NCBI RefSeq assembly: GCF_001485215.1
Contig: NZ_BBWW01000001.1
Location: 3,596,001 to 3,660,000, forward strand
From: Leptolyngbya sp. NIES-2104
GTDB taxonomy: Bacteria; Cyanobacteriota; Cyanobacteriia; Leptolyngbyales; Leptolyngbyaceae
Length of the DNA stretch: 64,000 nucleotides
Direction of reading: 5' to 3'
In this document: positions 23,600 to 57,491 of the stretch, piece after piece
Layout: the number at the start of each line of letters is the position of its first letter
How positions within the stretch are numbered: the stretch's first letter is position 1
Program-made: the position numbers and the translations under genes
The notes under the pieces: generated by a model
Database searches by the model: none
Seen by the model: only the letters and a program-made list of their open reading frames with translations
What the model was told of the DNA's origin: nothing

Positions 23600-23815
23600 T
23601 TTAGAGGGTGTTTGAAAAGTACATAAAGTTTATTCGCTTCGATTGCATCTCGCCCTGAAATGAATTTCGGGCTAACCGACGAAAGTCTACTGAAGTAGAC
23701 TGGGAGCCAGTTTCAGTCTCTTAGTCCTTTTCAAAGGACTTGCGCCGATTAGCCCGAAATTCCATTTCAGGGCGGGATGTGGCAACGAACGACAACTTTT
23801 CAAACATCCTCTTAG
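23600..23815. repeat. MITE-like palindromic element, copy 1
   Basis: A 216 bp element whose reverse complement is about 90% identical to 57225-57436. It has imperfect terminal inverted repeats (GAGGGTGTTTGAAAAG left; CTTTTCAAACATCCTC right), an inner inverted repeat of about 25 bp (23651-23675 with 23749-23773, core GCCCTGAAAT/ATTTCAGGGC) and two small hairpins in the middle (AGTCTACTGAAGTAGACT and AGTCCTTTTCAAAGGACT). No protein is encoded. It fills most of the 395 bp gap between the VWA gene and the winged-helix gene; I see nothing else there. Confidence 0.88.
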
Positions 23816-23910
23816 ATCAATGCGATCGAGCGTATCTCAAGACTTCCTAGCAGTCTTGAAAATTTGCATTTTAGGCAAAATTGGCTTTTCTTCTTGATCC
23901 AAACTTCAGC

Positions 23911-24759: not shown

Positions 24760-24786
24760 AGAGGGTGTCAGGTGATGCCCTCTTTC
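24760..24786. terminator. Hairpin between psbN and the alpha-mannosidase gene
   Basis: AGAGGG pairs with CCCTCT around a 12-base loop, followed by TTTCT on the plus strand. It sits between the convergent psbN and alpha-mannosidase stop codons and could serve psbN. Confidence 0.55.
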
Positions 24787-27700
24787 TAATTTTGCCTCTT
24801 CTTAATTCTATAAGTCCGAATTTCCCAAGGTCGGATTTCGGCGCGAGCTTGGATAGGACGTTCGAGTAAATCAACCGATTCAATGATCTCGAAGTCGCCT
24901 TTTAGGTTGAGTTCTGCGGGTTCGCCGTGGCATTCGTAACAGCGCAAAATGTATTCGTTGGGGTTGTCTTCGGACTGCTTCAAGCTTGTGAGGATGAGAT
25001 TGTCGGCTTGGAGGTCGAGGGAGGAATGAACGGGCGGGAGAGTGCCGTTTTCGGGGAGTTGGTCGAGTGTGAAGACTTCCAAGGGCTGTAGAAGTTCAAA
25101 CGCTCTCCGGGTGGTTTGAGCAGTTTTCCAGGTTCCAGCATGAGGATACAGCGCGTACGTAAATTCATGAGAACCTAAATCGGCTTCAGAATCCGGAAAT
25201 TCTGAGCCGCGCAGTAAGGTAAGCCGAATTTGGTCTGATTGGCAATCGAAACCATGTTTGCAATCACTTAAAAGACTAACGCCATATTTGCCATCATTTA
25301 GATCCGTCCATCCAAGTGCGGAAACTTCCCATTTAGCTTTTTCGGCTTCGGTTTCGGGGCGAGTCGTTCGCTTGATCGCGCCACCTGCCATTTCATAAGT
25401 CGCGAAATTGGCTTTTAGGTTAAGCGGAAATGCAGCTTTTACTAAAACGTGTCGCTCTTTCCAATTGACTGATGTATAAATCTTCAAGACGGGTGAATCA
25501 GGCTCCAAGTAATACCAATGCCGAAAGATAGATTCTCCGATCGCTCGTTTAACTTCAATTCCAGGAATCAGAGATATCCATTTTCGATATTTAATCTCTA
25601 GCAATCTAGGACGATCGAGAGGGTGAGCCGCGTAGTTCGGATCAATATTCCATGCGTCCCAGTATTGCCCACTATCTTGAAAAGCCTGAAGATCATTTCC
25701 AAGCCCGTTTAGGATTTCGCGATCGTTCACTTTATCAACGACACTAGACAAGCTACCTGTTTCAGGATCAACGATCGCTTTGATGAACTCATTCTCTAAG
25801 ACGAAATCATCGGAAAATACATTCGCATCAAGTAACAGAGGCTCGCCGGGATAAAGCCAAAAGCATCGGTAGCCAATCGAGGGAATTGTCTCTGCCCAGA
25901 ATGAGTAACAATAAATGCGAAACTCACCTGTGTTAATCCAAGATTTCTCGATTTGAACTTGAATATCTTCACCGTCCAAACTGCAAATCTTCCAGCTTCG
26001 TTCATCTGAAATAGACCTTACTAAATCTGCCGTAACAATTCCAGATCTTTCCCAGCTTGATGGATTAAAAACTACAACAAGCACCGCTTCTAGATGGGGC
26101 GGAATAGGGAGCTTTATTTGCATTCCAATATTCGACTTGCCGTAAACTTTATCGAGAATATCTCCAAACTCAAACTGCTTAACAAGTGCAGTATTGTAAA
26201 CTTCACGAATCGATGAGCCTGGCAAAATATCATGGAACTGATTAAATAGAACAATTTTCCAAGCTTCTTCTAGATCTGTCTTCAAGTAGGTTGAGTTTGT
26301 CAAGCTCGAAGACAAAGAAGCATCCATTTCGACAAGGTGCAGCCGAGCTTCTGCTTCCCGATTAAACCTTTTTTGGTCGCCATGTGTCGTATAGCAACCG
26401 CGATGAAACTCTAAATAAAGCTCATCATTCCAAGTTTCTTTTGGAGCTTCTAAGCTTTCTAAATAGTCCAATGCAGTGGTAAATTCTAATCTTGGAAAAA
26501 AGGGCGATCGCTTCCATCGTTCCGCAATTTCCAACATATCCCGCGTCGGACCTCCCCCATGATCGCCCACGCCAAATAGCCACAGTGCATGAGGTTTCCC
26601 GGTTTTATTCACCCAGTCCCAAGCGAATTTCGCCATTTTGATCGGCTCGATCGCTTCCCCGATCGGCGATGACATCAAACTTTTAACCTGACTACCATCG
26701 GGTGCTTGCCAGTTAAACCATTCATACGGAAACTGTGTCGTATCGTTCCAGCGAAGTTTCTGAGTGACGAAGTAATCAATGCCTGCAAGTTTGAGAAATT
26801 GCGGAGTTTGCCAATTGAAACCGAAAGTATCGGGAAGCCATGCAACGCGGCAGATTTCACCAAACTTTTCTTGACAGTAGCGTTGCCCGTATAAGAGATG
26901 ACGTGCGATCGATTCTGCATTGATCAAATTCATCTCTGGTTCTACCCACATTCCGCCCACAACTTCCCATTTCCCAGCTTTCACTTGTGACTGAATTTGA
27001 GCAAAAATCTCCGGTCGATTTTGTTCAATCCATTCGTATAAAGCGGGTGTGGTATGACAAAACGTAAGCTCAGGATAATCTTTCTGTAGGTTTAGAACTG
27101 AAATGAATGTGCGTTCTGCGGCTCTCCAAGTTTCTTCAACATCCCAGAGCCAAGCCATATCTAAGTGGGCATGACCGAGTAAGAAAATTGTGTGTTGTTT
27201 GATTCTTGAACTAATCGGTAGAAGGGCAGTTCTTAGGGATTCTAGGGATTGATGGAATTGATTGCGATCGTGAATTTTCCAGTCAAATTTGATCTCTGAT
27301 ATTGAAGATTTCTCGCTTCGTTTCGGTAACGCCCCGGAATGGAATTCGGGGCTGTCGGTGCGAAGTCCGTTAGAAACGGACTGAAGATCTGGTTCTGCGT
27401 CTTCAGTCCCCTTCAGTGGACTTCGTTCTGTTAGCCCCGAATTCCATTCCGGGGCGGGTGAACGCAATGAACGCGAATCTTCAAACACTTCCGCATCATT
27501 TTCTAATTCGGATGAGCACGAATTTCTAAATACTCCCTGAATATTCTCTAATCCAAACGCATCAATATAACTCTGAATAACTTCTAATTCATCCGCAACA
27601 AATCCCGGATCACTCTCATCGTAATTCGATTCATAAATAAGGCGCGATCGCATTAATCCCCCAATGTCATGTCCCGGACTGATCAATCGAATCGCAACCG

Positions 27701-28082
27701 CAACTTTTTCACCCGGAACCACACTAGAACTTAAAACTACTCGACAAGAATGATCAAATAAATCGCCTTCTTGAACTTTCTCACCATTCACGTAAACTTC
27801 TGCAAATTCCGCCCACCAAGTTAACGCCAATCTCAGCGTCAATCCTGCTAACGGATACTCATTTAATGCTTCAGGCAAAACGAACTCTTGATAAAACCAG
27901 CGGACTTTTTGCCCTTTTTCCCACACCAGATAGCGCTTCTCGTTCAGTTCAATTTTTGTAAACGACTGTGACGGAACATCGGAAATCGCGCAATCTTCGC
28001 AGACTTGCCAATGCTCGATCGCGTCTTGTTGGACTAAGTTGCGTAAACGCTCGATAAATGATGCAGTAAGAACGTCTGTCAT
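24786..28082 (-). CDS. GH38 alpha-mannosidase with in-frame palindromic insertion
   Basis: A 1098-residue glycoside hydrolase of family 38. The N-terminal beta domain (about 1-200) precedes the catalytic (beta/alpha) domain: zinc ligands in LLGHAHLDMAWLWDVEETWR near residue 304, the nucleophile Asp in VAWLPDTFGFNWQTPQFLK near 417, and FGVGDHGGGPTRDML. The helical bundle (DQKRFNREAEARLHLVEMDASL...FNQFHDILPGSSIREVYN) and a long beta-rich C-terminus (TLYPHAGTW-like segment YALYPHAGTWK) follow. GH38 enzymes remove alpha-linked mannose from glycans; no signal peptide is seen, so a cytoplasmic role is likely. Residues about 200-261 are encoded by a 183 bp palindromic element and are of low complexity (Ser, Glu, Arg, Pro). 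The frame is intact throughout. Confidence 0.93.
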   Translation of the reverse strand: MTDVLTASFIERLRNLVQQDAIEHWQVCEDCAISDVPSQSFTKIELNEKRYLVWEKGQKVRWFYQEFVLPEALNEYPLAGLTLRLALTWWAEFAEVYVNGEKVQEGDLFDHSCRVVLSSSVVPGEKVAVAIRLISPGHDIGGLMRSRLIYESNYDESDPGFVADELEVIQSYIDAFGLENIQGVFRNSCSSELENDAEVFEDSRSLRSPAPEWNSGLTERSPLKGTEDAEPDLQSVSNGLRTDSPEFHSGALPKRSEKSSISEIKFDWKIHDRNQFHQSLESLRTALLPISSRIKQHTIFLLGHAHLDMAWLWDVEETWRAAERTFISVLNLQKDYPELTFCHTTPALYEWIEQNRPEIFAQIQSQVKAGKWEVVGGMWVEPEMNLINAESIARHLLYGQRYCQEKFGEICRVAWLPDTFGFNWQTPQFLKLAGIDYFVTQKLRWNDTTQFPYEWFNWQAPDGSQVKSLMSSPIGEAIEPIKMAKFAWDWVNKTGKPHALWLFGVGDHGGGPTRDMLEIAERWKRSPFFPRLEFTTALDYLESLEAPKETWNDELYLEFHRGCYTTHGDQKRFNREAEARLHLVEMDASLSSSLTNSTYLKTDLEEAWKIVLFNQFHDILPGSSIREVYNTALVKQFEFGDILDKVYGKSNIGMQIKLPIPPHLEAVLVVVFNPSSWERSGIVTADLVRSISDERSWKICSLDGEDIQVQIEKSWINTGEFRIYCYSFWAETIPSIGYRCFWLYPGEPLLLDANVFSDDFVLENEFIKAIVDPETGSLSSVVDKVNDREILNGLGNDLQAFQDSGQYWDAWNIDPNYAAHPLDRPRLLEIKYRKWISLIPGIEVKRAIGESIFRHWYYLEPDSPVLKIYTSVNWKERHVLVKAAFPLNLKANFATYEMAGGAIKRTTRPETEAEKAKWEVSALGWTDLNDGKYGVSLLSDCKHGFDCQSDQIRLTLLRGSEFPDSEADLGSHEFTYALYPHAGTWKTAQTTRRAFELLQPLEVFTLDQLPENGTLPPVHSSLDLQADNLILTSLKQSEDNPNEYILRCYECHGEPAELNLKGDFEIIESVDLLERPIQARAEIRPWEIRTYRIKKRQN
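27302..27484. repeat. Palindromic element inserted in frame in the GH38 gene
   Basis: A 183 bp (61-codon) element with 9 bp perfect terminal inverted repeats (TTGAAGATT and AATCTTCAA), an inner perfect 23 bp inverted repeat (27331-27353 with 27433-27455, core CCCCGGAATGGAATTCGGGG), and two small central hairpins (AGTCCGTT/AACGGACT and AGTCC/GGACT). The layout is the same as the elements at 23600 and 57225, with sequence divergence. Being a multiple of three and free of stops in the gene's frame, it adds 61 residues without breaking the protein. Confidence 0.88.
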
Positions 28083-39525: not shown

Positions 39526-39756
39526 TTTCGCTTCGCTTTGGGTGGGTTGCGCCCCCTAAATCCCCCATTCTGGGGGACTTTGAAGGATGAGCAAGTTCAG
39601 GTTTCGGTGGCATTCTTTTGGAGAAGACCATTCTGCTGTCTAAGCCCGAAAGCATCTGTTATGTGAGCCTTCCCTCGACTACAGATTTTTTCTGTTGTCA
39701 AAGTCCCCCACTCGTGGGGGATTTAGGGGGCTTCCCGGATTTTGAACGAAGCGAAA
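39526..39756. repeat. Long imperfect inverted-repeat element
   Basis: A 231 bp element with terminal inverted repeats TTTCGCTTCG/CGAAGCGAAA and inner arms CCCCCTAAATCCCCC.../...GGGGGATTTAGGGGG. Each arm is itself a hairpin (CCCCCATTCTGGGGG; CCCCCACTCGTGGGGG), and ACTTTG/CAAAGT extends the pairing. CCCCCTAAATCCCCC motifs are common in dispersed cyanobacterial repeats. It sits between the convergent MidA-like gene and rlpA. Confidence 0.8.
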
Positions 39757-45096: not shown

Positions 45097-45181
45097 GTTT
45101 TAGAAATCTTGCGCTTCGTTTATCTTCCGCCCCGAATTCCATTCCGGGACGGAAGATAAACGAAGCGAGTCACTCTAAAAC
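45097..45181. repeat. Short palindromic element between DUF3082 gene and ilvD
   Basis: A 17 bp perfect stem (45113-45129 with 45150-45166; GCTTCGTTTATCTTCCG and its complement) enclosing CCCGAATTCCATTCCGGG, with outer GTTTTAGA/TCTAAAAC (45097-45104, 45174-45181). The inner core is the same AATTCCATTCCGGGG motif as the element in the mannosidase gene, so it is probably a reduced member of that family. It may also act as a bidirectional terminator. Confidence 0.75.
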
Positions 45182-57199: not shown

Positions 57200-57224
57200 A
57201 AGTTGAAGAGATCGCTGCGATTTC

Positions 57225-57436
57225 AGAGGATGTTTGAAAAGTTGTCGTTCGTTGCACCGTCCCGCCCTGAAATGAATTTCGGGCTAATCGGCGCAAGTCC
57301 TTTGAAAAGGACTAAGAACTTGAGACTGGCTCCCAGTCTACTTCAGTAGACTTTCCACGATTAGCCCGAAATTCATTTCAGGGCGGGCGGCAATCGAAGC
57401 GAATAAACTTTTTATGCTTTTCAAACACCCTCTTAG
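57225..57436. repeat. MITE-like palindromic element, copy 2 (inverted relative to copy 1)
   Basis: About 212 bp; its reverse complement matches 23600-23815 at about 90%. Terminal inverted repeats are GAGGATGTTTGAAAAG and CTTTTCAAACACCCTC. Inner arms GCCCTGAAATGAATTTCGGGCTAA and its complement enclose the same two small hairpins, in reverse order. It occupies most of the gap between ispF and the BlaI-type gene, so it sits in both promoter regions. Confidence 0.88.
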
Positions 57437-57491
57437 AATATCAATTTGAGCGATTGTTATATGATCGGATCGCTAATACTCTGTTTACTGT

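Follow-up and report, generated by a model that had tools for sequence, protein, structure and literature searches.

Our analysis makes it likely that a palindromic, MITE-like element transposed into the gene for a GH38 alpha-mannosidase in the cyanobacterium Leptolyngbya sp. NIES-2104, that it is read through as approximately 80 extra residues, that the enzyme tolerates them, and that mobilization was of the IS5 type. The palindrome belongs to a repeat family, its site is empty in relatives, the reading frame is intact, purifying selection acts on the whole gene, and the genome carries an insertion sequence (IS) with the ends of a sister subfamily, type B. In the mechanism that we propose, the element would have entered the gene once this species had diverged from those relatives whose genomes are sequenced. 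The ribosome would read through the insert and the enzyme would gain ~80 residues, which would form a disordered loop leading from the N-terminal domain to the catalytic barrel and be tolerated there. Type B elements would be moved in trans by an IS5-family transposase, and type A elements, to which the GH38 copy belongs, by the same enzyme or by a related one since lost. The window, that is, the whole 64,000-nucleotide stretch of DNA analyzed here, comprises bases 3596001–3660000 of contig 1 in a genome assembly that is nearly complete (6.39 Mb, five contigs), and coordinates below are positions in this window unless they follow the handle of another locus.

The type A copy at 27302–27484 (no strand assigned) was delimited by inspection, repeat search, and RNA folding. 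Its terminal arms, TTGAAGATT and AATCTTCAA, lie at 27302–27310 and 27476–27484, the left end of this copy being degenerate. A comparison of its left (27330–27368) and right (27418–27456) inner arms, likewise unstranded, showed 87% complementarity over 39 nt, with the outer 23 nt perfect. An earlier note on this DNA had described a 183-bp palindrome with 9-bp terminal and 23-bp perfect inner inverted repeats; re-reading the arms bore this out, as did the predicted RNA fold of 27290–27500 (–103.1 kcal/mol, z = –9.9, 0 of 200 shuffles as strong), a hairpin that brings the ends of the element close together. The 183 bp are also free of stops in the minus-strand ORF 24786–28082, as had been claimed, and code there for residues 200–261, but the encoded stretch is not strikingly low-complexity, contrary to the same description. 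Rfam gave no match above threshold, the two that it returned being MIR2118_2 (27.9 bits, cut-off 120) and Ocean-VII (14.8 bits, cut-off 53.5), and a collection of 72,556 plasmid records held no match to the element. Within the genome itself, copies occur throughout, as its earlier reading as a repeat implies: after the self match (100%), the next copies are ~84% identical over 160–176 bases (E of 6e-45 and below), and the best copies elsewhere, when 40 of 191 candidates were scored, are 80–89% identical.

The interrupted gene (24786–28082, minus strand) encodes an intact GH38 alpha-mannosidase of 1098 residues, as judged from the ORF, Pfam, and Foldseek. Pfam places Glyco_hydro_38N at residues 298–548 (1.2e-84) and also recognizes the 38C, middle, and C2 domains; Foldseek matches the predicted structure to GH38 structures such as Ams1 (Ams1-like). 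The earlier note had put the addition at 61 residues. While the 183 bp do encode residues 200–261, what is extra in comparison with orthologues is larger, namely 81 residues (182–262) or a net insert of 243 bp (27297–27539, minus strand). These residues are absent from all six same-genus orthologues that span the site (L002–L007), in which the flanking matches meet or nearly meet; a seventh (L010) begins downstream of the site and was left out of this count. In a wider alignment, the place opposite residues 184–262 is empty in 40 of 43 rows and holds 12–14 residues in the other three, so that relatives show the clean gap that the earlier reading had led one to expect. We considered whether the segment might be a linker of the ordinary kind, specific to this lineage and bearing no more than a likeness to the repeat, given that linker length at this site varies among cyanobacterial GH38 proteins. 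However, the clean gap in relatives, together with the matches to other copies (~84% over 160–176 bases, E of 6e-45 and below), refutes this explanation and leaves it with a negligible probability.

The size of the insert can be resolved further. At its gene-facing edge lie two tandem 45-bp units, a first one that spans the gene–element junction (GLENIQGVFRNSCSS, 27510–27554, minus strand) and a diverged second one (ELENDAEVFEDSRSL, 27465–27509, minus strand), which are identical at 30 of 45 positions. None of 300 shuffles of the region reached 30/45, and adjacent 45-mers equally alike occur at 4 of 63,910 positions in the window, overlapping ones included. The 48 bp that adjoin the palindrome have no repeat elsewhere in the genome and are accounted for by this duplication. 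Since 243 – 45 = 198 bp, the size of a full element (192–211 bp in rows with type A ends, mode 199), the insert probably breaks down into a 198-bp element and a 45-bp duplication. Its likely history is thus one insertion followed by the duplication, both frame-preserving.

The insert adds a whole number of codons and leaves the frame open, so that translation most likely runs through it, and we infer that the resulting loop is tolerated by the enzyme. It is unlikely, in our assessment, that the insertion has in effect silenced or truncated the gene, with the hairpin blocking translation or being cut by RNase and the open frame a matter of recent luck. The transcript could form the –103 kcal/mol hairpin, and, as far as the published account of the Anabaena sp. 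90 genome describes them, the 15 MITEs in ORFs there were all called pseudogenes, having themselves been found via pseudogenes (PMC3542288). Against this, the 836 codons on the 3' side of the insert are intact, and the branch pair shows strong purifying selection. Compared with its counterpart in the closest relative (G006), the gene has a dN/dS of 0.09 as a whole and of 0.035 for residues 298–632, no higher than in the insert-free pair G006–G007 (0.127 and 0.045, respectively), hence there is no sign of decay, although values of this pairwise kind are compatible with a recent loss of function. Purifying selection acts on the gene as a whole. Moreover, the 45-bp duplication has diverged to 30/45 with its frame still open, which argues that the insert is not brand new, and in-frame palindromes have been kept in MenE of seven of eight species (see below). 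The strength of the hairpin and the closeness of its ends could also be read to mean that the insert is removed or skipped in expression, by RNA excision or ribosomal bypass, and that the protein is normal. This we hold to be very improbable, since nothing would oblige a skipped segment to keep an open frame or a length divisible by three, whereas the GH38 copy and the other in-gene copies do both, although the discovery of those copies via open frames weakens the argument.

We return to the reading in which the insert is translated. An AlphaFold2 model of the GH38 protein, built from 29 alignment rows, has a mean pLDDT of 82.5 and, in a numbering that is one lower because the first residue was omitted, a segment with pLDDT below 50 at residues 179–258. 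This segment lies between a helix at 178–185, after the N-terminal domain, and another at 272–293, entering the catalytic part. No other row of the alignment covers the insert, hence a low pLDDT is expected there in any case. The insert is probably a disordered loop that connects the N-terminal domain to the catalytic barrel, and the earlier guess of a surface linker agrees with its modeled position between two domains.

About ten residues downstream of this site, many GH38 proteins of Nostocales (L073–L075, L077–L081, L087, L107, L123, L127, L143, L146, and L149) contain a different in-frame segment, NRRGAEDAEKE-like and encoded by AACCGCAGAGGCGCAGAGGACGC. It gave 10 matches among plasmid records, none over 80% of the query and 4 of the 10 non-cyanobacterial, and one plasmid record matches a longer segment from the GH38 of Scytonema. 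These matches lend weak support to the idea that the Nostocales segments are dispersed repeats.

To describe the family, a 22-base core pattern was searched in the whole genome with up to three mismatches, and 127 forward and 135 reverse sites were found (reversed control: 0 and 0). The examined stretches and the window contain 81 two-armed copies, classed by their cores as 72 of type A and 9 of type B. The type A consensus starts with TTAGGGTGTGTTTTAAAGCC, and the type B end, GAGGRTGTTTGAAAAG, has 40 + 43 exact sites. Both ends could be recognized, allowing up to four mismatches, in 32/72 type A and 8/9 type B copies; type B rows are 205–209 bp long, most commonly 207 bp. Four copies with an A core carry B ends, which indicates that the two types are related. 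The earlier note had assigned the architecture of the GH38 element to two intergenic elements as well. They are indeed relatives, but by sequence comparison they form part of the distinct type B subfamily, whose ends differ: the first, at 23600–23816, has ends GAGGGTGTTTGAAAAG and TTA/TTA flanks, and the second, at 57220–57438 (start also read as 57225), has mismatched flanking triplets, TCA and TTA (both unstranded). We noted in addition a 41-bp stretch at 45129–45169 that resembles element ends or arms by blastn.

Matching TNA triplets flank 5/8 type B rows and 4/4 B-ended rows with A-like cores. Of 28 rows with A ends, 14 are flanked by TA left and right, but this target is itself palindromic and the evidence for target duplication is therefore ambiguous. 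When the commonest length is added to the target duplication, the sum is 201 bp for type A (199 + 2) and 210 bp for type B (207 + 3), both multiples of three. A typical insertion would therefore be frame-preserving, which may be chance. MITEs are ~70–300 bp long, lack a transposase gene, occur in many dispersed copies, and have terminal inverted repeats; types A and B agree with this in size, copy number, and terminal inverted repeats, and we describe the family as MITE-like.

A candidate source of transposase emerged from the type B ends. Twenty-nine stretches around such ends lacked an exact partner, and 6 of these (L259, L264, L265, L266, L269, and L271) contain a 915-bp element bounded by the type B ends. 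All six copies are identical, contig 2 having one and the chromosome contig the other five, and their flanking triplets match in every case (TTA, TAA, TTA, TAA, TCA, and TAA). The element encodes an IS5-family transposase (NF033580 transpos_IS5_3, 6e-62), and the identity of its copies suggests recent activity. Both the ends and the TNA duplications are common to the 915-bp IS5 element and type B, which is probably mobilized in trans by this transposase. The ends are all that types A and B have in common with this element as far as they were compared, and the type A ends are somewhat different. A search with one exact type A end pattern (seven sites) revealed no IS with type A ends. Nevertheless, the right end of the 915-bp IS (GAGGGTGTTTTAAAAG) resembles the type A end, which makes the same transposase, or a lost relative of it, the probable mover of type A. 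Could the family instead consist of REPs, with a RAYT (Y1) transposase as their mover? REPs inside genes are on record for several bacteria (PMC3733652), but REPs as characterized in the same source are 20–40 bp long, as opposed to an element of ~199 bp with terminal repeats. The 3-bp target duplications of type B and its DDE transposase partner also speak against this origin, and we give it hardly any weight.

Apart from GH38, type A copies lie in frame in genes for a porin and a CHAT-TPR protein, which with the GH38 copy makes 3 of the 72 two-armed copies in this genome, and a truncated copy lies in frame in MenE. The porin (NCBIfam iron uptake porin, 2.2e-147) has the element in its N-terminal stretch ahead of the SLH domain, in a different element frame. 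Its orthologue in G004 matches residues 1–74 and 160–680 with 3 bases between, and the other orthologues that span the site are without the palindrome (L213 begins inside the region). In the CHAT-TPR protein, the element is found shortly downstream of a hydrophobic N-terminus and is absent from the orthologues L220–L223. The MenE gene of G004 contains a full type A element, while that of the present genome has a truncated copy adjoining a 39-bp tandem repeat. The earlier suggestion of a cyanobacterial family that tolerates coding insertion is therefore upheld in these further genes, but a share of 3/72 points to rare tolerated insertion and not to a family specialized for coding sequence. The count covers frame-preserving copies, and the in-gene copies were found mostly via open frames, so that their in-frame status is partly a matter of ascertainment. 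Among the titles and abstracts surveyed, we found no report of in-frame palindromes in cyanobacterial MenE or GH38.

The idea that the family has been selected for open frames is not supported, since 27/72 copies have one or more of their six frames open (32 of 432 copy-and-frame combinations) versus 45% of shuffles. Tandem arrays at the coding copies have periods of 45, 39, and 15, all multiples of three (3/3). However, so do 7/15 of the TRF arrays at other copies (periods 13, 9, 7, 9, 23, 16, 8, 12, 9, 21, 6, 9, 16, 8, and 8), and the argument from tandem arrays is at best weak. Long ORFs at two further copies (L033 and L062) were dismissed as coding cases because the element lies at or before the likely start codon; these copies (L033, 2515–2661; L062, 2416–2633) are directly ahead of a glycosyltransferase-like and an oxidoreductase-like gene, respectively, and in L033 the element end may supply the ATG start. 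An ORF of another species of the genus (L036, 1384–4287, 968–972 codons) was not counted, having the type A peptide but no Pfam match; it also holds pieces like the palindrome C peptide (SKSPKLGGFRGQ), palindrome C being the repeat described next.

MenE, a name that here denotes the best family match (Pfam AMP-binding passes, and the NCBIfam models for o-succinylbenzoate-CoA ligase score strongly without reaching their curated cut-offs), presents a broader picture. Its linker, directly before the P-loop motif MIPTGGTSG, was scored against the repeat consensuses with 500 shuffles. Type A was recognized in two genomes (G004, G000) and palindrome C (GCCCCCTAAATCCCCC...) in five, namely G001, G002, G006, G007, and, decayed, G005 (each 0/500); the linker of G003 matches neither. 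Palindrome C is unrelated to type A, measures ~103 bp between the outer ends of its arms, and is dispersed in all eight genomes of the genus, where its exact half-sites number between 3 and 322, as against 0–6 for the reversed control. The MenE palindrome of the CCCCCTAAATCCCCC type, which is unrelated to A, occurs in five further species of this genus as well as in two genera outside it. The latter came from a family-wide survey in which 42 genomes were searched, 41 matched, and 30 loci were read, 25 of which yielded a linker by the motif used and 5 of which did not. Nine of the 25 linkers match A or C (0/200 shuffles), 7/8 within the genus (L229, L035, L227, L230, L231, L232, and L233) and 2/17 outside it (L295 and L298). 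All nine palindromes are in frame, but only ORFs with the P-loop motif were read, hence this is not a rate. A copy of palindrome C is also present in the window at 39552–39730 (GCCCCCTAAATCCCCC ... GGGGGATTTAGGGGGC); its arms are wider apart than the usual 103 bp, and something may be nested inside.

A wider reading, which we put forward tentatively and at somewhat less than even chances, is that unrelated mobile palindromes of cyanobacteria repeatedly enter the same permissive enzyme linkers and are long kept in frame, building linkers from mobile DNA. It draws on the MenE linker, with A or C depending on the species, and on GH38, with A here and a possibly repeat-derived Nostocales segment nearby. 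If true, such palindrome-built linkers would give free-living bacteria a counterpart, with several families, of the Rickettsia system.

In that system, palindromes (RPE) of ~150–200 bp, in several families, lie in frame in unrelated genes and are expected to be translated (Ogata 2000, 2002, as summarized in PMC10969869). The elements described here resemble RPE in palindrome size, in comprising several families, and in the in-frame insertion into unrelated genes that comparison with orthologues points to for GH38, the porin, CHAT-TPR, and MenE. They differ in their free-living cyanobacterial host and in their coding share: nearly half of the palindromic elements of R. conorii are reported to lie in ORFs (PMC10969869), as against 3/72 two-armed copies here. 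Owing to this low share, we compare the family with RPE by description and do not file it there. GTAG/CGTC REPs are palindromes for which 20–82 encoded residues inside ORFs are described, and recB of two Xanthomonas species is given as a case of different REPs at about the same site (PMC3733652), a precedent for the MenE linker with its differing palindromes. REPs, at 20–40 bp, are nevertheless far from the sizes of type A (~199 bp), type B (207 bp), and palindrome C (~103 bp from arm to arm). Cyanobacterial MITEs on record include Nezha and the MITEb and MITEe of Anabaena PCC 7120 (cited in PMC10969869), as well as the 147 MITEs listed for Anabaena sp. 90 (PMC3542288). By description, they share with our family a short, non-autonomous form, terminal repeats, many copies, and mostly intergenic positions. 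The in-ORF MITEs of Anabaena sp. 90, in contrast, were called pseudogenes in the account of that genome (PMC3542288), whereas the genes here appear intact. What appears to be new is the cyanobacterial host, the IS5 partner of a sister subfamily, and a linker that takes in unrelated palindromes.

The best-known protein-coding palindromes are those of Rickettsia, an intracellular bacterium with a reduced genome, which invites the view that weak selection is a precondition for them. In a free-living cyanobacterium, in-frame copies, empty sites, and an IS5 relative make it testable how often enzymes gain transposon loops, and whether such loops serve any purpose. Sister species whose MenE linkers hold different palindromes at one site offer a ready comparative series.
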